NCBI GenBank assembly: GCA_007695055.1 | Contig: REEM01000089.1 | Span: 1 to 58,591 of the forward strand | Source of the DNA: Spirochaetaceae bacterium | GTDB lineage: Bacteria; Spirochaetota; Spirochaetia; DSM-27196; SLAA01 | Length of the DNA stretch: 58,591 nucleotides | Reading direction: 5' to 3' | Shown: positions 12,572 through 25,163 of the stretch, in pieces | How the letters are laid out: every line of letters begins with the position of its first letter | Position numbering within the stretch: the first letter of the stretch is position 1 | The notes under the pieces: generated by a model | What the model was told of the DNA's origin: nothing | Seen by the model: the letters and a program-made list of their open reading frames with translations, nothing else | The model's database searches: none | Program-made: the position numbers and the translations under genes

Positions 12572-12600
12572 GTGACAATTGTTCCGAAAATCGCTATAAT
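12572..12600 (+). promoter_or_regulatory. Sigma-70 promoter of the phospholipase-D-like lipoprotein gene
   Basis: -35 GTGACA (12572-12577, one mismatch), 17-base spacer, and a perfect -10 TATAAT (12595-12600). Predicted start near 12607, 17 bases before ATG 12624. Confidence 0.7.
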
Positions 12601-12623
12601 AGGTTGTTATTGGGATACAAAAA

Positions 12624-14186
12624 ATGATTGCTCCAGCTATTTCCGGGAAGCCCGGGCGCCCAAACTTTATGCGACTCTTCCTCCTGTTTGCAACAATTTC
12701 AGTTGTCGGTATTGGTTGTGCTGGCATGGACGTGCCAGCGGACCGGCCACATCAGTTTTCGCTACCTGCCGCCGAGAGCGGTCTGGTGTACGAATTTGCT
12801 CAAGGTGCAACAGCTGGTCTTGAGCCCAATGAGTCTGGTCTGCTTCTTCTTTCGCGTAATGACGACGCTTTTGCGTGGCGACTCGCACTCATAGATTCTG
12901 CGGTAGACGCAATTGACGCACAGTATTTCATTTGGGACTCCGACTTTGCCGGACTGCTCTTGCTGGGGCGGCTGATTGATGCCGCCGACCGAGGTGTCCG
13001 GGTGCGGCTCCTGGTGGACGACGTTTTCCTAACCCATAGCGACCGTGAGGTATCCGCGCTCACCTCACATCCTAACCTTGATGTACGGGTCTTTAACCCA
13101 AATTCGGCCCGTCGAACCCAGACCGCCAGGGTAGTCAACTTTGCCTTTAACCTTCAGAAACTGAACCGCAGAATGCATAACAAGTTGCTTGTTGTTGATG
13201 GGCAGGTAGCGATTCTGGGCGGGCGCAACATTGGGAATGCCTATTTTGGTCTCAGTTCAAGTTACAATTTCCGCGACCTTGACACTCTGGTGACCGGAAG
13301 TGAGCTGCCGACAATGCTTGCGTCCTTTGATGAATACTGGAACAGCCCGTACTCATTTTCCGGAGAACCACTGCATGCTCGGGGTGATTGGGAGTACTTC
13401 CTGGAGTTTCGCGAACGGATCACCCGTTCTGTAAACGCGGACGCGCTGTCCAAGGTTGTGGATGCTAGCCCGCGAGACTGGGGCTCTTTCTTTGATCAAG
13501 GTCTTGAAGAGGTGCTGCCAGCACGCGCCCGGTATATTTATGATCATCCCACCGAGCGAGCTGACCGCAGAGTCGGTGGTGCCTTGTCCGAGTTCCTGTC
13601 CCAAGAGCAGGACGACGTCATTGTCGTGACGCCGTACTTGATACCGGATGATGATGTTCTTGACGGCCTCAAGGTGTTGGTGGACCGTGGCACCCAGGTA
13701 CGGGTGCTGGTGCCTTCCATGGCCTCAAACAACCATACCATAGCTCATAGTCAGTACAGAAAATACCGGGCACGGCTGTTACGCAAAGGGGTCGAACTCT
13801 ATGAGTATCGGCACCAACCACAGGGGGTTGCTCCAGGGTATATAGAGTCGGACCTCATGCGCGCTCGGTTTGTCAGTATGCACATGAAAGCTATGGTGGG
13901 TGGGGACAACTACGCGTTTGTTGGCTCGCTTAATCTTGACTCACGTGCCCTGCGGCTTGATACCGAAAGCGGTCTCATTATTGAGTCCGCGGAGTACGCA
14001 CAGCGTCTTCGACAGATCCTGGAACCGATGTTGTCTCCGCAACAGGCATGGCTGGTTGAGAACTCGCGACTGGGGTATGTGTGGACATCTGAGATAGGTT
14101 CAAGCCGCCGCCAGCCAGCTCGTTCCTGGTTTCAACGCCTTGCCGACGCGGTTTACTGGTTTCTCCCGCTACGAGATCACCTTTAG
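12624..14186 (+). CDS. Phospholipase D-fold lipoprotein, cardiolipin synthase C-like
   Basis: A 520-residue protein with two PLD/HKD domains. The likely translation or processing start region MRLFLLFATISVVGIGC (from ATG 12669) is a lipoprotein signal with Cys as the modified residue, so ATG 12669 is an alternative start. HKD motif 1 is intact (HNKLLVVD, His185-Asp192, then GGRN). Motif 2 is HMKAMVGGDNYAFVGSLNLD (His420): the Asp expected five residues after Lys is Gly, with an Asp one place later. The layout matches ClsC-type enzymes that join phosphatidyl groups to make cardiolipin; a lipoprotein anchor would place it in the periplasm. Enzyme activity is likely but the motif 2 change leaves doubt. 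Confidence 0.8.
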   Translation: MIAPAISGKPGRPNFMRLFLLFATISVVGIGCAGMDVPADRPHQFSLPAAESGLVYEFAQGATAGLEPNESGLLLLSRNDDAFAWRLALIDSAVDAIDAQYFIWDSDFAGLLLLGRLIDAADRGVRVRLLVDDVFLTHSDREVSALTSHPNLDVRVFNPNSARRTQTARVVNFAFNLQKLNRRMHNKLLVVDGQVAILGGRNIGNAYFGLSSSYNFRDLDTLVTGSELPTMLASFDEYWNSPYSFSGEPLHARGDWEYFLEFRERITRSVNADALSKVVDASPRDWGSFFDQGLEEVLPARARYIYDHPTERADRRVGGALSEFLSQEQDDVIVVTPYLIPDDDVLDGLKVLVDRGTQVRVLVPSMASNNHTIAHSQYRKYRARLLRKGVELYEYRHQPQGVAPGYIESDLMRARFVSMHMKAMVGGDNYAFVGSLNLDSRALRLDTESGLIIESAEYAQRLRQILEPMLSPQQAWLVENSRLGYVWTSEIGSSRRQPARSWFQRLADAVYWFLPLRDHL

Positions 14187-17233: not shown

Positions 17234-18100
17234 TTATTCGGACAGCACCTCGTTCAGCTGGGCGCGGTTATAGGTGAATACGTCGAGCAATGTGCGAGTA
17301 CCGGCATGACCGGGGAAGTTAATCCAGCTCACGTACAAGGCATTGGGAAGGGTCTCCCGAAAGGGCGTACCCACTTCGTTGTGCCAGTTGTCAATAATGA
17401 GCCGAGCACCGGCCCGCGAGAGAGTTCCAATCTGCTGTGCCTCAAGTGGCCCGGGTCCATAGCGACCTACCGGCTCAACGCCCAGGGCGCCCAACATCTG
17501 AGCCTGGAAGGCGTGGGCAATGACCGCGCCCTGGGTGAGACCATGGGCAGCAAGCTCCGCACTCCAGTCATCAAAGAATGACTCAATCTCGGCCAGGTTG
17601 GCGCGCGCCGTCTCCTCGGTGCCGAGTTGCGCGGCAATGCGCATGACCGACTCGGTCATGACCTGCGGTGTGTGGGTGGTAGTGATCTGCACCGAACTCA
17701 CATTGGCCTCGCCAAGTGCGCTCTTCAGTCGTTCTACCATTCCCTCATACCCTGCATAGACCACCAAGTCCGCCCGTTCTACACGTTGCAGGTCGGTCGC
17801 GCGCAGTTCATACTCGGCGGGGTGCCGCATCTCATACGGGGCCAACAACTCTATGTTCTGCGCGCCGGCGGCCTGCGCAAAGGCGGCGGTCCAGGCGGTC
17901 GTAGCCAGCACTACCTGTTCTCCCGGCTGCGTTTGTGCGGGCTCTCCCGGGGTGCTCTCGGTTGACGCCGGGCTAGGCTCCGGGGCGCTCTCTGCTGAGC
18001 CACCTGCCTGGAGTGCTGGCACCAGCAGCACCATCATCATAATTGCTGCTGCACTGAGGGTAACAGCGCGCGCTTTCCTACATCGACCTACTATTCTCAT
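17234..18100 (-). CDS. Metal ABC transporter substrate-binding protein (ZnuA/TroA family)
   Basis: A 288-residue exported binding protein of the cluster A-I (zinc/manganese) family. The signal peptide ends near VPALQAGGSAES, an AGGS end often seen in spirochaetal binding proteins, without a lipobox Cys. Likely metal ligands are His in MRHPAEYELRATD and His in VIAHAFQAQML, followed by a C-terminal Asp in LLDVFTY. The linker after the signal is Pro/Ser/Glu-rich. There is no His-rich loop of the ZnuA type, so Zn versus Mn cannot be decided. Last gene of a three-gene minus-strand operon, overlapping the permease gene by 4 bases. Confidence 0.85.
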   Translation of the reverse strand: MRIVGRCRKARAVTLSAAAIMMMVLLVPALQAGGSAESAPEPSPASTESTPGEPAQTQPGEQVVLATTAWTAAFAQAAGAQNIELLAPYEMRHPAEYELRATDLQRVERADLVVYAGYEGMVERLKSALGEANVSSVQITTTHTPQVMTESVMRIAAQLGTEETARANLAEIESFFDDWSAELAAHGLTQGAVIAHAFQAQMLGALGVEPVGRYGPGPLEAQQIGTLSRAGARLIIDNWHNEVGTPFRETLPNALYVSWINFPGHAGTRTLLDVFTYNRAQLNEVLSE

Positions 18101-18924
18101 GCATGCCTCCTCTGGATGTGAGAAACAAGACTAACAAAGCCGAGCACGAGCGCACCAACTATGGTGACACCGGAGCTCGCCGGTATATCAATTCCAATTG
18201 CAAAGACAAAACCAACAAGACTAATGAGGAAGCCAAAGGCCATGGCCTGCACAAACAATCCGCGCAGGCTGCGGCTGGTGACCCCGGCAATGAGGGCTGG
18301 GAGAATGAGTACCGCGTCCAGAAGGAGTGCGCCAATGAGCCCCATGGTGAGTGTTATGGTCAGGCCTACGGCGAACAGGATTCCGGTATGGATGAGCCCG
18401 GAGGGAACACCGGCGGTGAAGGCAAGTTCGCGGTCGTAGAGCACGGCCGCCAGTTTGGGAAATAACACCAGCACCAGCACCATAATGAACAGTGCAAAGC
18501 CAATGGTCACAATGGCGTCAAAGCGAGTGAGCGCAAACACGTTGCCCCAGAGAAGACCCAAGGAGTCATTGGCAGGCACGTTAAAGCGATACAGCACCGC
18601 AAAAGCGAGTCCAATGGTCAGCACCATGAAGAAGGTGGTTATGTGTCCAAGGTTGGGGCCAACCTTTTTTCCAAGGACTGCAATGCCCAGAATCAAGAGG
18701 ACGTTCACGCCCATCATTACCGGCAAGGGACTGAGGCCCGCCGCCAGACCAATGGCGGCACCAAGCAGTGCGCTGTGCATGACCGCAAAACGCAGGGTAA
18801 TAAGGTTGAGCCGGATCACGAACACGCCAATGAGCGGGAAGAAGGTTCCTGCAGCCAGGAGTACCAGGGCTCCACGCATAATTGGCGGGTACTGGAGCAG
18901 CGCCAGAATTTCTGTGAAGCTCAT
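18097..18924 (-). CDS. Metal ABC transporter permease (ZnuB/ABC-3 family)
   Basis: A 275-residue membrane protein with about eight hydrophobic segments and the ABC-3 family pattern (FPLIGVFVIRLNLITLRFAV near the N-terminus; GLIGALLLDAVLILPALIAG in the second half). It is the membrane pore for Zn2+ or Mn2+ import. Start overlaps the stop of the ATPase gene (ATGA), and its own stop overlaps the start of the binding protein gene, so all three are translationally coupled. Length is normal for the family (260-290). Confidence 0.9.
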   Translation of the reverse strand: MSFTEILALLQYPPIMRGALVLLAAGTFFPLIGVFVIRLNLITLRFAVMHSALLGAAIGLAAGLSPLPVMMGVNVLLILGIAVLGKKVGPNLGHITTFFMVLTIGLAFAVLYRFNVPANDSLGLLWGNVFALTRFDAIVTIGFALFIMVLVLVLFPKLAAVLYDRELAFTAGVPSGLIHTGILFAVGLTITLTMGLIGALLLDAVLILPALIAGVTSRSLRGLFVQAMAFGFLISLVGFVFAIGIDIPASSGVTIVGALVLGFVSLVSHIQRRHA

Positions 18925-19676
18925 CGGGCGGCTGCCAGGTGGCCCAGGTACTCGGGTTTACTGTCGTTGGGCTTTGTGCCCTTAGGCTTGTTGCCATTGA
19001 GTTTGTTGTCGGTAACAAGTTGTCCCTGGGACATGACGAGCTGCCGCCAGCCAGCCCGCGTGAACTGGGCAGCGTCGTGACTCACCAGGACTACCGTTAT
19101 TCCCCGGGATGCGTGGAGGTGTTCAATCATGGATAGGAACTCATCCTTGCCTTCCGGGTCAAGTGAGGCGGTTGGTTCATCGAGCAGCAAAATACTTGGG
19201 TTCTGTACCAGACAGCGGGCAATTGATACCCGTTGCTTCTCGCCACCTGATAGCCGTGCGTAGACCGCGTTGCGTAGGTGTCTGCACCCGGTGGCAACCA
19301 TGGCTGCGTCGACCTTGTCGTTCTTTTGCTTTCTTGTTTCACGCCGGGCTGCGAGGCCAATCTCTACCACCTCGGCGGCGGTAATGGGAAACTCAACGCC
19401 AACGGATGTCTGATGCACGTATCCGACATCGTGCCGAACTCGGCGCCACGCGCGTGAGCCTACCCGCAGACCGGCCACAAATACACTGCCCTCGGTAGTC
19501 GGCAGGAGACCCAAAATGGACTTGATGAGGGTAGATTTTCCGGCACCGTTACTTCCGCTGATCATCACCAGCTCACCAGGGTGTATGCTAAGATTAATGT
19601 TCGCAAGAATTTGATTGCCATCTATGCGTACGGCAACCTTGTCTATCTGAATAATTGGGGCGATATTGTGAGACAC
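18921..19676 (-). CDS. Metal ABC transporter ATP-binding protein (ZnuC family)
   Basis: A 251-residue ABC ATPase: Walker A GSNGAGKST (about 40-48), Q-loop VGYVHQTSVGVEFPI, signature LSGGEKQR, Walker B ILLLDEPTAS, and switch His in VLVSHDA. It powers the coupled permease. The last 25 residues carry a lysine/proline repeat (NKLNGNKPKGTKPNDSKPE) not seen in usual ZnuC proteins. GTG 19676 is used with GGAG about 7 bases upstream. First gene of the operon. Its promoter region (19677-19760) is shared with the divergent hydrolase gene and contains an imperfect CTGCA...TGCAG repeat (19702-19726), which may be a metal-regulator site. Confidence 0.9.
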   Translation of the reverse strand: MSHNIAPIIQIDKVAVRIDGNQILANINLSIHPGELVMISGSNGAGKSTLIKSILGLLPTTEGSVFVAGLRVGSRAWRRVRHDVGYVHQTSVGVEFPITAAEVVEIGLAARRETRKQKNDKVDAAMVATGCRHLRNAVYARLSGGEKQRVSIARCLVQNPSILLLDEPTASLDPEGKDEFLSMIEHLHASRGITVVLVSHDAAQFTRAGWRQLVMSQGQLVTDNKLNGNKPKGTKPNDSKPEYLGHLAAAR

Positions 19677-19761: not shown

Positions 19762-20559
19762 ATGCTGAAGGCACTCATAGTAGTTCTTGTTCTGTACCTC
19801 ATTCTTGTTGGCGGAGGGTGTGTTGTGCAGCGGCGGCTCATTTATTTTCCCGAACGAATTCCAATGCAGGCGGCCGAACAGCTGGCCGCACAACAGGGGC
19901 TTGAAGCATGGCGCAACCGTGACGGCGAGGTCATTGGATGGCGCGAGCGTGAAAGCGCCCAGGAGCTGCCGAGACTGCTCGTAATGCACGGGAATGCCGG
20001 TCACGCATTGCACCGGCGCCACTACATAGATCTGTTGGGAGACGCTTGGGAGGTTCTGCTGCTGGAGTATCCCGGTTACGGAGTTCGGGGCGGCCGCCCG
20101 TCAGAACCGGCCTTGCTCGAGGCCGCTTCGGAGGCGGTTGAGCAGCTGCGTTCCGAGGATGCAGATACACCTGTCTATCTTTTGGGTGAGTCCCTTGGAA
20201 GCGGGGTTGCCTGTGGAGTCGCCGGGGAGCGGCCGCAGCAGATAGCCGGACTCATTCTCATTACACCCTTCAACAGTCTTACCGAGGTCGCTGCCGGACA
20301 CTTTCCCTTTCTCCCGGTACGCTTCATTTTGCGCGACCGGTATGATAATGTAAAAAGTCTGCAGGCCTATGATGGCCCGGTGTTTGTGCTGTTGGCAGGC
20401 AACGACGAAGTGGTGCCTACACGGCACGGCGAAGCACTCTACAATGCATATGACGGCCCAAAGGAAAAGGTGCTCATTGAAGGCGCAGGCCACAACACCG
20501 TACTATCTGCAACAACAGCTGCTGAGTGGCGCAGACTGATCTCTTTCTTCCAGGAATAA
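19762..20559 (+). CDS. Membrane-anchored alpha/beta hydrolase (BEM46/ABHD13-like)
   Basis: A 265-residue serine hydrolase with one N-terminal membrane segment (LIVVLVLYLILVGGGCVV). The oxyanion-hole motif HGNAG, nucleophile elbow GESLGSG, acid NDEVV and catalytic His in GAGHN are all present, as in BEM46-type hydrolases. The conserved LIYFPER segment after the anchor supports the family. Substrate unknown; esters or lipids are likely. ATG 19762 follows GGGAG at the right distance. The Cys in LVGGGC could make it a lipoprotein. It is followed after 4 bases by the histidine phosphatase gene. Confidence 0.85.
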   Translation: MLKALIVVLVLYLILVGGGCVVQRRLIYFPERIPMQAAEQLAAQQGLEAWRNRDGEVIGWRERESAQELPRLLVMHGNAGHALHRRHYIDLLGDAWEVLLLEYPGYGVRGGRPSEPALLEAASEAVEQLRSEDADTPVYLLGESLGSGVACGVAGERPQQIAGLILITPFNSLTEVAAGHFPFLPVRFILRDRYDNVKSLQAYDGPVFVLLAGNDEVVPTRHGEALYNAYDGPKEKVLIEGAGHNTVLSATTAAEWRRLISFFQE

Positions 20560-20563
20560 CAGC

Positions 20564-21241
20564 ATGGAACTCATTCTTCTCCGTCACGGACAAAGCACCA
20601 CCAACCGTCTGCTCGCCGAGGTTCAGGACGAGCGTCAGGTTGATACCGGCCCGCAGGACTCCACCCTTACCAGGCTTGGGCGCCGTCAGGCCGACCTTGC
20701 CGGGAAGGCGCTTTCGCGCGAGTACATCGACATGATCATTAGCAGTCCAGCCCGACGCACACTAGAGACCACCCGCAGAGTCGTTAAGTGTATTGACGCC
20801 CTACCAATGGTAGACCCCCGAGTAGTTGAAATTCGCGGTGTGGGGGCTGTTCCCGCGGCAAGCGGCGAGGAACTCAGGGCGATGTACCCAGGCTTCAGTT
20901 TTGGCACTGAGTTTGACAACGAGGTTGCCTGGAACATGGGGTACCTGAACGAGAGCAAGGAAGACCTGTACCGGCGCGCGCAGGGGCTCTGGCAAGATCT
21001 CCTAGTACCGCGGGCATACTCAGAGATCGGGAGGGAGTCTCGAGTTTTGGTGGTGACCCACCGAATGTTCTCCGCCTACCTGACCGGGATTGCCTTGGGA
21101 ATGAACCTGGACCAGGTCCAAACGGGACGCTTTCAACTTGGAAACTGTGCTTCAACTCGCTTTGAGGTGCGGTCCAACGGGGTTGTTATGGTCGTGCACG
21201 CCAACCGCGAGGACTACCTCCACGGGAGAGTGAGCGCCTAA
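20564..21241 (+). CDS. Histidine phosphatase family protein (phosphoglycerate mutase-like)
   Basis: A 225-residue cytoplasmic phosphatase: LLRHGQST near the N-terminus supplies the phospho-accepting His8, SSPARRTLETT is the second phosphate-binding patch, and VVTHRMF provides the second catalytic His. A long insertion between residues 80 and 150 differs from cofactor-dependent PGAM, so a broad phosphatase role is more likely than a glycolytic mutase. Start lies 4 bases after the hydrolase stop, and the M50 protease gene follows by 40 bases; the three may be one transcript. Confidence 0.85.
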   Translation: MELILLRHGQSTTNRLLAEVQDERQVDTGPQDSTLTRLGRRQADLAGKALSREYIDMIISSPARRTLETTRRVVKCIDALPMVDPRVVEIRGVGAVPAASGEELRAMYPGFSFGTEFDNEVAWNMGYLNESKEDLYRRAQGLWQDLLVPRAYSEIGRESRVLVVTHRMFSAYLTGIALGMNLDQVQTGRFQLGNCASTRFEVRSNGVVMVVHANREDYLHGRVSA

Positions 21242-21281
21242 ACAGCTTCCCAATTTGCCATCCTATGGCTATTTTGTAGAT

Positions 21282-22370
21282 ATGCGTTGGTCATTTCCTC
21301 TCTTTTCATTTCGCTCAATTGCGGTGAAGGTGCACGCTACCTTCTTCCTGCTCCTCATCTGGGTGGCGTTTGCAGAGACCTCCCGCGGGGCGCCACCAGC
21401 GGTTATTGCGCAGTCGGTAGCTTTTATCCTTGCTTTGTTTGCGTGCGTGGTTCTGCATGAGTTTGGTCATGCGCTCACCGCGGCCCGTTACGGTATTCGA
21501 ACCCGCGATATCACCTTGCTTCCCATAGGCGGGCTTGCCCGCTTAGAAAGAATGCCGGACGATCCCCGCCAGGAACTCGTGGTAGCGGCAGCTGGCCCGG
21601 CAGTGAACGTTGTTATTGCGGCCTTAATCTTCCTCTTTCTTACCTTGACCACCGGGTTTCGCGCACCGGAAGCCGAAACGCTCGTGCGGGGAAGCTTTCT
21701 CATGCGACTTCTCACCGTGAACATTGCGTTGGTGCTCTTTAACATGCTCCCGGCCTTTCCTATGGACGGTGGGCGAATCCTGCGGTCTGTACTTGCTATG
21801 CGTATGAGTTATGCAGAGGCTACCTCACTTGCGGCAACCATTGGCCAAGGCATGGCTTTGTTGCTGGGCTTTCTTGGCTTCATTGGCAACCCCTTCCTGG
21901 TGCTCATTGCTGTTTTCGTCTGGATTGGGGCGGGCCAGGAGTCACACATGGCGCAGATGCGCGCTTTTTTCTCCGGCACAATGGTGAGGGAGGCTACCGT
22001 AACCGAGTTTCACACACTCTCGCCGCGGGATCTTCTGAGTGATGCAACCCGGCTGCTGCTTGCCGGTACACAGCTGGACTTCCCGGTTGTAGATGACGGC
22101 CAACTGGTGGGGATGTTGACGCGAGAAGGCCTTACCAAAGCGCTTGCTGAGTTAGGCACCGAGGCGGCGGTTGAGCAGGCAATGCTGCGCGATGTAGTCA
22201 CGGTCGACGCCGGGCAGACGCTTGATAGCGCCTTTGCCCAGATGCAGGCTGGGGGCCAGCGTTCCATGCCGGTGATGTTTCGCGGTGAACTCTTTGGCTT
22301 GCTCACCACCGAGAACGTGGGTGAGTACGTCTCTATTCGTTCTGCCCTCTCCGGCAAGCGCGCCCCATAA
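21282..22370 (+). CDS. Site-2 protease family metalloprotease with CBS domains
   Basis: A 362-residue M50B membrane protease of the SpoIVFB type with CBS pair. The zinc site HEFGH lies in the second membrane segment (VVLHEFGHALTAARYG) and the third ligand in FNMLPAFPMDGG. A CBS pair occupies about residues 235-350. These proteases cut within membranes to release regulators or clear signal remnants, and CBS domains often bind adenine nucleotides. ATG 21282 begins the usual MRWSF...VKVHATF start of the family; the upstream in-frame TTG is rejected. A strong hairpin terminator at 22584 or the repeat at 22383 may end its transcript. Confidence 0.9.
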   Translation: MRWSFPLFSFRSIAVKVHATFFLLLIWVAFAETSRGAPPAVIAQSVAFILALFACVVLHEFGHALTAARYGIRTRDITLLPIGGLARLERMPDDPRQELVVAAAGPAVNVVIAALIFLFLTLTTGFRAPEAETLVRGSFLMRLLTVNIALVLFNMLPAFPMDGGRILRSVLAMRMSYAEATSLAATIGQGMALLLGFLGFIGNPFLVLIAVFVWIGAGQESHMAQMRAFFSGTMVREATVTEFHTLSPRDLLSDATRLLLAGTQLDFPVVDDGQLVGMLTREGLTKALAELGTEAAVEQAMLRDVVTVDAGQTLDSAFAQMQAGGQRSMPVMFRGELFGLLTTENVGEYVSIRSALSGKRAP

Positions 22371-22382
22371 CTATCAAACTTC

Positions 22383-22405
22383 CTCACATGTAATGTTCAT
22401 GTGGG
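22383..22405 (+). promoter_or_regulatory. Inverted repeat upstream of the small-transcript promoter
   Basis: CACATG (22385-22390) and CATGTG (22398-22403) are perfect arms around TAATGTT; two further flanking positions also pair (one G-T). It ends three bases before the -35 box at 22408 and 13 bases after the upstream stop codon. It could be an operator or a hairpin after the protease gene. Confidence 0.4.
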
Positions 22406-22407
22406 AC

Positions 22408-22437
22408 TTGACAGCAGCACCAAAGAATAAGTATTAT
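22408..22437 (+). promoter_or_regulatory. Strong sigma-70 promoter without a following long gene
   Basis: Consensus -35 TTGACA (22408-22413), 18-base spacer, -10 TATTAT (22432-22437). Predicted transcription start is near 22444. No gene on the plus strand follows before a strong terminator. Confidence 0.65.
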
Positions 22438-22441
22438 TGTA

Positions 22442-22546
22442 ATGAATATTTACGTATCTATATTTTTGCATGACTGTCAAACCTTCGTTGATGGTTTGAT
22501 TTTCATATTAGGTTGCGGCATATTGGTCGCGACCGGGGAATCGTAA
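22442..22546 (+). CDS. Possible 34-residue hydrophobic peptide
   Basis: An open frame of 34 codons, MNIYVSIFLHDC at the start and a hydrophobic stretch GLIFILGCGILVA near the end, long enough for one membrane span. Small hydrophobic peptides of this size occur as type I toxins and as membrane regulators. Against it, there is no Shine-Dalgarno and the predicted transcription start is at the ATG, so it would need leaderless translation. Confidence 0.2.
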   Translation: MNIYVSIFLHDCQTFVDGLIFILGCGILVATGES

Positions 22547-22620
22547 TTTCGCATTAATTACGGTCCTCCACGACATGGTGGGTGGCGGAGACTACGTTGT
22601 AGTCTCCGCCGTTTTTTTCC
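22444..22620 (+). ncRNA. Candidate small RNA of about 175 nt
   Basis: The unit runs from the predicted start near 22444 to the terminator at 22584-22618. It contains three further perfect hairpins: TCAAACC/GGTTTGA (22477-22483 and 22493-22499), the palindrome GGTCGCGACC near 22525, and CGTAATT/AATTACG around 22542-22562 with a 7-base loop. It is not recognised as 6S, SRP, RNase P or tmRNA. An alternative is that it is the mRNA of the 34-residue peptide starting at 22442, although that ATG has no Shine-Dalgarno and coincides with the transcription start. Confidence 0.45.
22584..22618 (+). terminator. Strong intrinsic terminator
   Basis: Perfect 12-base-pair stem GGCGGAGACTAC / GTAGTCTCCGCC (22584-22595 and 22599-22610), loop GTT, followed by GTTTTTTT. 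It ends plus-strand transcription before the convergent lipoprotein gene. Confidence 0.93.
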
Positions 22621-22679
22621 GTGCGCTGTGAAGGTAGCGCGCGCAGCTGAACCGCGCGCGCCGGGATAACTGTCCTGTA

Positions 22680-25163
22680 CTAGTTGTCGAGTAAGTAGAA
22701 CTCTACTCGGCGGTTCTTCCAACGGTTCATTGCGTCGCTATGCTCTACAATTGGTTCGTAGCCGCCTTTGCCTGCGGTGCTCATGCGTGCCGAAGCTATT
22801 CCCCGTTGTACCAAAGCTGTTCGGACTGCCTCGGCCCGCATGCGGGACAGAGGTAGCAGGGTGTCTCGTTCCTCAAGCTCCCAACGCCCCGGCTGATTCC
22901 AAAGTACTCGTACGGCATGCCCTTCCAGTTCTATTCTGTGGTTGGGGTAGCGCTTCAAGATCTCGGCAAGGCGATCCAGGGTTGCAATGTTGCGCTCACG
23001 TACATCGGCCTCAACTCCAAGATAGTCAGCGGTGAAGGGACGGAAGTAAATGCTCGATATACTAATGCGTAGCCGGTCTCCGTCACGCAGTACCAGAATA
23101 TCGGTGGATATTGCAAACTCGCTCCGGCCTGCGTTACCCAGTTGATCCTCGGCTACCACCACCAGGGTGTAGTCACTTGCCGACTGCACCAGCTCGCCGG
23201 TTGACGACTTGCCGTCCCAGCTGAAGCTGCCATTGCGGAAGCGTGCCTGAGGCAGACTGAGGAAACGGTTACCTGCCGGGTCAAGAATCTCGGCTGACCA
23301 GGACTTCACCCCGCTCGGGTCGTCTACCCGAACCTGAATGTTGAGCGTGTCGTTGATCCCATCTCCGTCCGGAGAGAAGGGCAGCGGCGAGAGACGGACA
23401 TGTACGTCCGGTGGGCTCATGTCCAGCAGCACCGGGGTGTCACTGACTGCAGCACCTACGTTACCCTTGAGGTACACAACACTGAGGCGACCAGTATATG
23501 ATCCTTCGTTTACAGATCCGTCGGGTGCAGTGCCATTCCAGGCGATGGTCTCAGGTACTGTGCTTGTCTCACCGGAATGGTGCATTACTGCCTCACCGGC
23601 CGAGTCCAGCACCGCGAACTCCCAAGACTCTACCCCGTCCGTTACCTCGGGGCGCAGCTGGAACTCTACTATGGCGTCGAGACCACCCGCGGCCGGGTTG
23701 AAGGTAGACCGGGAGGGAACCACTCGTACCGGTGTCGGCCGAGTATCCACAACAATCCGTGGTATGGAGTGCGCGCCACGGTTACCTGCAGCGTCGGTTG
23801 CCACCAGGGTATAGGAGTAGGATCCGTCCGGAACGATGTTGCCAGCTGCATCGGTTCCATCCCACTCTAGGTTGGTGACCTGCCCCTGCCAGTTGAACTC
23901 ACGAACCAGGCGTCCGCGAGCGTCGTTAATTCGTCCGCGCCACTCGCCTTGCATCTCTGAGCTCTGAATGATTACTACCGAGTCCTTGCGTCCGTCTCCA
24001 TCCGGCGAGAACACCGGCAGCCCCGCGCGCACCGAGGCCTGTGGGGGAGTTATATCCAGTACAAAGCGTTCAGATGTGAGGCTGGGGCGTGCACCGTTGC
24101 GGTAGGTGACCTCAAGCAGGCCGTAGTACTCGCCTTCGGGCAGGCGTTGACCATTGTCGCCACGACCGTCAAAGACCACGGTCCCAGTGGCGATTTCGGC
24201 CGGAGTGAAACTCCGTCGTGGACTGCCAGCGGTGTCTATGACTTTCAATGCGATGTCGGCAATCTCCTCGCGTCCCTCGGCAGTCAGGGTGAAACGAACG
24301 GTGTCCTGAACTCCGTCGGCGTTGGGTGAGAAGGCCCGGGGGGTGACGTTCAGAGTGACCGGATATACGCTGAGGTCTAGTTGTATGCCAACAAGGCGCG
24401 TTTCAAATGAGTTGCCCGCTCGGTCGGTCGAGCGCAGTACGTAGGAATACTGGCCTTCGGCAGCAGCTTGGCCGTTCGCGGTGCGCCCATCCCATTCAAG
24501 GGTTTCAGGAGTACCGTTCCAGGTGAACTCACGCACCCGCCGTCCGGCGGTATCTACAATAGCGCCTACCCACAGATCCTCGGTGCTGGCGTTGGTGTGG
24601 AAAATATCAAGCGTGTCCTGCCTGCCGTCGCCGTTTGGTGAAAAGACCAGGTAGGGAGCACTCACATCAGCATGAGGCGCTTGGTTGTCCACAATCACGC
24701 GTAACGCTGGTGAGGAGCCACGGTTGTCCTTGTAGTCCCAGGCCTCGGCGCTTATGGTGTAGGGCCCGTCTGGGACCCAGTCACCACGAAAATCTACACC
24801 ATTCCATAGGAACTCAGAAGGAACTGCCACCGCTTTGGGGCGGCTGAAATAACGGCGAATGCCAGTGGGACGCTGTTCTGCTTGACCCGTGGAGTACACT
24901 TCCAGTCCGGCCTCGTTGGCGACAGATATTTCATAACCGGCAAGTTTGAGTCCCTTGAGCTCAGGTATATCCAGAGAGATGCGAATATCGTCCTGTACTC
25001 CGTCCATATTCCGGGGCGATATGTGGGTTTCCTCCGGGATGCTGGTATTGACAGGAATAGGCCCTTCAAATGATGCACAGGCGACCATGAGCGCCATTGC
25101 TACAATGCTAACAATGCCGAAATGCCGAAGCTGAGTTCGGCTGAACTGAGAGCGGTTCGTCAT
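22680..25163 (-). CDS. Large OmpA-type lipoprotein with repeated FlgD-like Ig domains
   Basis: An 827-residue outer-membrane-anchored protein. The signal MALMVACAS (Cys29) is a lipobox. The body has at least six repeats of about 100 residues, each with an (F/L)SP(N/D)GDG-type start, a W(D/N)G centre and an AxDxxGN end, the pattern of FlgD-type Ig repeats in spirochaete surface proteins. The last 120 residues are an OmpA/MotB peptidoglycan-binding domain (IELEGHAV, LSRMRAEAVRTAL, NRRVEFYL). It likely links outer membrane and cell wall or acts as a surface scaffold. The start overlaps the stop of the small upstream gene (ATGA). Confidence 0.88.
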   Translation of the reverse strand: MTNRSQFSRTQLRHFGIVSIVAMALMVACASFEGPIPVNTSIPEETHISPRNMDGVQDDIRISLDIPELKGLKLAGYEISVANEAGLEVYSTGQAEQRPTGIRRYFSRPKAVAVPSEFLWNGVDFRGDWVPDGPYTISAEAWDYKDNRGSSPALRVIVDNQAPHADVSAPYLVFSPNGDGRQDTLDIFHTNASTEDLWVGAIVDTAGRRVREFTWNGTPETLEWDGRTANGQAAAEGQYSYVLRSTDRAGNSFETRLVGIQLDLSVYPVTLNVTPRAFSPNADGVQDTVRFTLTAEGREEIADIALKVIDTAGSPRRSFTPAEIATGTVVFDGRGDNGQRLPEGEYYGLLEVTYRNGARPSLTSERFVLDITPPQASVRAGLPVFSPDGDGRKDSVVIIQSSEMQGEWRGRINDARGRLVREFNWQGQVTNLEWDGTDAAGNIVPDGSYSYTLVATDAAGNRGAHSIPRIVVDTRPTPVRVVPSRSTFNPAAGGLDAIVEFQLRPEVTDGVESWEFAVLDSAGEAVMHHSGETSTVPETIAWNGTAPDGSVNEGSYTGRLSVVYLKGNVGAAVSDTPVLLDMSPPDVHVRLSPLPFSPDGDGINDTLNIQVRVDDPSGVKSWSAEILDPAGNRFLSLPQARFRNGSFSWDGKSSTGELVQSASDYTLVVVAEDQLGNAGRSEFAISTDILVLRDGDRLRISISSIYFRPFTADYLGVEADVRERNIATLDRLAEILKRYPNHRIELEGHAVRVLWNQPGRWELEERDTLLPLSRMRAEAVRTALVQRGIASARMSTAGKGGYEPIVEHSDAMNRWKNRRVEFYLLDN

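Follow-up and report, generated by a model that had tools for sequence, protein, structure and literature searches.

A candidate stand-alone small non-coding RNA gene apparently restricted to one genus of Spirochaetales

Stand-alone trans-acting small RNAs (sRNAs) of bacteria are typically 50-250 nt long, intergenic and lineage-restricted, and are transcribed from a sigma-70-type promoter into a structured RNA with an AU-rich, mostly unpaired 5′ segment and an intrinsic terminator. 6S RNA, by its shape, is a long interrupted rod. To our knowledge, the small RNAs of free-living spirochaetes such as those considered here have hardly been studied so far. Hundreds of sRNAs have been mapped in a distant spirochaete, Borrelia burgdorferi (PMC10319736), so that spirochaete sRNAs are not new in themselves. 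The unit described here shares all the features listed above for stand-alone sRNAs, as far as these can be read from sequence, and differs in that no Hfq gene was found in its genus. It is similar in length to 6S RNA (RF00013) but gives no match to it and differs in architecture. None of the literature returned by a topic-level search named this RNA, and we file the unit as an orphan bacterial sRNA of a known kind whose family is unnamed.

The window, i.e. the whole 58,591-nucleotide stretch analysed here, comes from the 3.43-Mb genome (G000) of an uncultured, soda-lake-type member of the Spirochaetaceae. The unit is flanked by an M50 peptidase gene and an OmpA-type gene, all within the window, and the open-frame list agrees with the first-pass annotation that no long gene occupies the plus strand within the unit. 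Three other genomes of the genus were compared, namely G001 (Spirochaetales bacterium CSSed162cmB_373, SLAA01000005.1, unit at 1162-1385 on the minus strand) and G003 (Spirochaetaceae bacterium T3Sed10_372, PXEI01000312.1), which carry the unit, and G002. Sample names of the CSSed and T3Sed type come from studies of sediments of soda lakes (PMC6146748, PMC6704655). A public strand-specific metatranscriptome exists for the uppermost 2 cm of Cock Soda Lake sediment (PMC6704655), made from fragmented, random-primed libraries in which short RNAs may be scarcer than in the cell; the isolate name CSSed162cmB_373 suggests that G001 stems from this sample. The features of the locus are the following.

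21255-22370, plus strand: M50 peptidase gene with CBS domains, upstream neighbour of the unit
22372-22635, no strand: segment missing at the syntenic site of G002, which matches 20543-22371 and 22636-23531 end to end
22408-22413, plus strand: −35 box TTGACA, identical in G001 and G003
22432-22437, plus strand: −10 box TATTAT after an 18-base spacer, 6/6 in G001 and 5/6 in G003
22442-22546, plus strand: 34-codon frame, not conserved, rejected as a gene
22444-22618, plus strand: predicted small RNA of about 175 nt, ends placed from the promoter and terminator
22445-22462, plus strand: AU-rich 18-base segment, identical in 3/3 species, mostly unpaired in the predicted fold, putative site of base pairing or of protein binding
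22470-22506, plus strand: hairpin 1 (predicted fold), changed pairs remain standard in all three species
22511-22534, plus strand: hairpin 2 (predicted fold)
22536-22567, plus strand: hairpin 3 (predicted fold)
22568-22581, plus strand: hairpin 4 (predicted fold), loop GACATG invariant, 14/14 conserved
22584-22618, plus strand: intrinsic terminator with a 12-bp stem, loop GTT and G + T7, stem and loop 27/27 in G001 and G003
22680-25163, minus strand: OmpA-type gene, convergent (ends at 22680), downstream neighbour of the unit

Elsewhere in the window, a cluster of ABC ATPase and ABC-3 permease genes lies on the minus strand at 17234-19676, adjoined by what is presumably a metal-binding lipoprotein gene; we take the cluster to resemble zinc/manganese uptake systems.

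Both the near-consensus promoter and the textbook terminator of the first-pass annotation stood up to analysis. TTGACA-18-TATTAT matches the consensus at 11 of 12 positions, and the window holds two sites of this quality compared to a mean of 0.05 per resample (20 resamples generated from the window by a first-order Markov model). The only other such site, GTGACA-17-TATAAT (12572-12624), lies directly before a 520-aa frame (12624-14186) that we take to be phospholipase D-like from its HKD-type motifs. The spacer of the unit's promoter is poorly kept (8/18 identical to G001, 9/18 to G003); judged by its letters, the unit thus has a promoter of its own, of which the boxes are kept and the spacer is not. 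The arms of the 12-bp terminator stem that precedes T7 (22584-22595 and 22599-22610) pair perfectly and are invariant in the relatives, and no other site in the 58.6-kb window combines a perfect stem of at least 10 bp with a T run, nor did any in 20 resamples. An inverted repeat reported just before the −35 box is present (arms 22385-22390 and 22398-22403) but not conserved, CACATG/CATGTG reading CAGTTT/CATGTC in G001, and we rejected it as an operator.

Alignment recovered the unit from two of the three other genus genomes, at 88% (G001) and 86% (G003) identity for query positions 38-259 of 281. Between the window and G001, the −35 and −10 boxes are identical (12/12), as are 10 of the 11 bases immediately 5′ of the −35 box and 160 of the 175 transcript positions (157/175 for G003, although G001 and G003 are themselves identical at 171 of 174 positions, so that the comparison contains little more than two independent sequences). 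The same two genomes agree at only 13 of 26 positions of the upstream spacer, at 120 of the 208 fourfold sites in the neighbouring M50 gene and at 6 of 59 positions of the barely alignable intergenic stretch downstream. Since the promoter boxes and the transcript alone are held, and not the spacer, flank or synonymous sites, the pattern is the one expected of an RNA gene. By this comparison, the promoter boxes, RNA sequence and terminator evidently stand under selection, at a level of conservation far above the local neutral one.

In the prediction, positions 22444-22620 fold at −69.5 kcal/mol, versus a mean of −43.3 for shuffled sequences (z = −6.5), and none of 200 shuffles was as stable; the AU-rich 5′ segment has some of its bases paired with the U tract in fold models. 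The first-pass annotation had counted several perfect hairpins, a claim that holds for the terminator stem only, other hairpin-forming inverted repeats nearby being 76% and 79% complementary. In the consensus fold of the three sequences, 99.4% of cells are paired; seven pairs show a one-sided change, all of them still standard, a single terminal pair cannot form in the window's sequence, and no pair has changed on both sides among these three sequences, two of which are nearly identical. None of 14 substitutions breaks a consensus-fold pair, compared to 5.0 expected (P = 0.0007). Because the consensus fold was built using the relatives, we repeated this test with single-species folds; a deficit of broken pairs persisted in most comparisons, though more weakly. 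In the four comparisons involving the window, P ranged from 0.12 to 0.012 with all helices and from 0.012 to 0.001 once the outermost helix, which is doubtful, was left out. G001 and G003 differ from each other at three positions only, and their comparison was uninformative (P = 0.08 and 0.13).

Searched with a covariance model, 3 of 46 genomes from the order and 3 of 394 from the class contained the RNA, distant relatives being able to escape a model made from three similar sequences. Its single hit in a phylum sample of 392 genomes was G000 itself, inclusion of G001 and G003 in that sample not being visible. L004 and L005 each gave a weak match (E = 0.057 and 0.0013, respectively, in 61,891 bases), to short AT-rich stretches that we took as chance. 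Among GTDB species genomes, a 19-base exact pattern occurs only in G001, G003 and two records, an Aminicenantes and a Binatia MAG, both rejected for lack of a match to the RNA model. In six genomes from other genera, inspection of the DNA that follows the M50 gene revealed no such unit. As to a phage or plasmid origin, blastn gave no match in 50,697 phage and 72,556 plasmid records, and viral contigs contained no match to an 18-base pattern from hairpin 4; a hairpin 1 pattern occurred in two viral contigs, which the RNA model scored negative and which look like coding sequence by eye.

We consider it somewhat more probable than the alternatives taken together that 22408-22618 is a genus-restricted stand-alone small non-coding RNA gene whose transcript would act in trans as an Hfq-independent base-pairing regulator. 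The restriction to the genus, within Spirochaetales, holds as far as tested. In the proposed mechanism, the unit's own sigma-70-type promoter would drive synthesis of the RNA and the intrinsic terminator would end it, the chained hairpins and terminator would give it stability, and the RNA would pair with its targets without Hfq. As the stretch 22445-22462 does not differ among the three species and is predicted to be mostly unpaired, we propose it as the pairing site, where it would serve as the seed. Hfq was not found in any of the four genus genomes by a search that was positive in 6 of 14 controls.

The search for targets covered this one seed segment, as patterns, in the four genomes. With up to three mismatches allowed, the complement of 22445-22462 matched the gene itself in three genomes and, at three mismatches, two places in G001, close to what the control gave, and a 14-base version with up to two mismatches gave no excess over the reversed-pattern control. 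We inspected 16 of the 25 14-base sites; the other nine are the gene's own three and six from G002. Two types of inspected site were common to at least two genomes, one coding and one upstream of a gene; the latter looks like that gene's −35 box. At about position 1500 of L057 and L066, from two species, we observed TTAGGGTTACCTAA upstream of a gene whose product begins MNSPLLELKG, beside a −35-like TTGACA; we take this sequence to resemble a DtxR/IdeR iron box.

That these searches returned no mRNA target is also what one would see if the RNA were a genuine, conserved sRNA that binds a protein, as a sponge or scaffold, and pairs with no mRNA. We regard this as unlikely, and it is the alternative that we take most seriously. 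The hairpins and the terminator stem are kept in both sequence and shape, as the invariant terminator and hairpin 4 illustrate, and CsrA is encoded in all four genus genomes. A CsrA sponge is nevertheless improbable, and we rejected it, because GGA occurs just twice in the RNA, each time within a paired stem, and none of the three sequences contains ANGGA; Hfq, for its part, was not found in the genus.

We give slightly less credence to an action in cis, in which the element would provide the M50 gene with its 3′ untranslated region and terminator and would also run antisense to the OmpA-type mRNA at the 3′ end of the latter, any separate transcript being a by-product. A scan from the M50 stop codon to the unit revealed no further terminator-like site, and the OmpA-type gene ends close by, downstream of the unit, at a distance of about 60 bases in the window compared to about 20 in G001 and G003. 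However, a bare terminator could do without −35 and −10 boxes that are conserved and without 91% conservation of the transcript, and an antisense overlap in cis requires no sequence conservation. The flanking genes of G002 moreover manage without the unit: this member of the genus has both genes and a clean absence of 264 bases between them. The comparison shows a unit that evidently comes and goes whole between two syntenic genes. Single-gene trees do not resolve whether the G002 difference arose by gain or by loss; nucleotide trees group G002 weakly with G000, at 66% bootstrap, a grouping that would speak for loss in G002.

Directly 3′ of the unit, at 22637-22661, lies an inverted repeat, GCGCGCGC-9-GCGCGCGC, of a kind of which none is expected by chance. 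A similar GC hairpin occurs at the empty site of G002, and G001 and G003 are without it.

The first-pass annotation had left the choice between a small RNA and a hydrophobic peptide. Its RNA half is well supported by the comparison and its peptide half fell: the 34-codon frame exists in the window and starts near the predicted transcription start, but its ATG lies two bases 5′ of 22444, is ATA in both relatives and is followed there by a 1-base deletion that shifts the frame, making a small membrane or hydrophobic peptide a highly improbable product. The other frames in the unit are short, open at TTG or extend across the terminator, and vary between species, those that open at TTG in both length and residues; a conserved open frame, as a type I toxin or small membrane peptide would have, was not found in the window, G001 or G003. 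With the 34-codon frame broken and the others variable between species, the gene product is most likely RNA alone.

Equally hard to credit is that the unit encodes a diverged form of an RNA already known, for instance 6S RNA or one like LhrA of Listeria. No Rfam family reached its gathering score in the window, so no match to a known RNA family emerged, and the unit is missing from G002 with its flanks intact, in agreement with the earlier impression that it is no standard housekeeping RNA. The best sub-threshold match was LhrA (RF00615), which has an AU-rich 5′ part and a terminator at the same relative positions and reached E = 0.00014 in a 401-base search; its score, however, was 25.3 bits versus a gathering score of 100, and the family title says 'Hfq binding', whereas Hfq was not found in this genus. 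We treated the LhrA match as chance and rejected it along with Xoo2, mir-3926 and CC3552, all below cut-off, as chance or terminator-driven. The 6S role would seem vacant, given that RF00013 was not found in the window or in any of nine family genomes, a silence that says little because the same search was positive in just 5 of 14 controls. Against a diverged 6S RNA speaks the predicted chain of hairpins, which is not a 6S-type rod, and the lack of the unit in G002 and in other genera is unlike a housekeeping RNA.

We return, then, to a stand-alone sRNA that would act by base pairing. Its novelty could extend to a new RNA family, which we suggest only tentatively: a lineage-specific, Hfq-independent regulator, carried on a compact promoter-to-terminator cassette that is cleanly gained or lost between conserved genes in haloalkaliphilic spirochaetes, and with an undescribed protein partner or pairing mode. 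The unit is a well conserved RNA gene that Rfam and protein-finder annotation missed. Given a genus in which the search for Hfq came up empty, the way this RNA acts would be informative, and its presence or absence among the four genomes offers a natural comparison.
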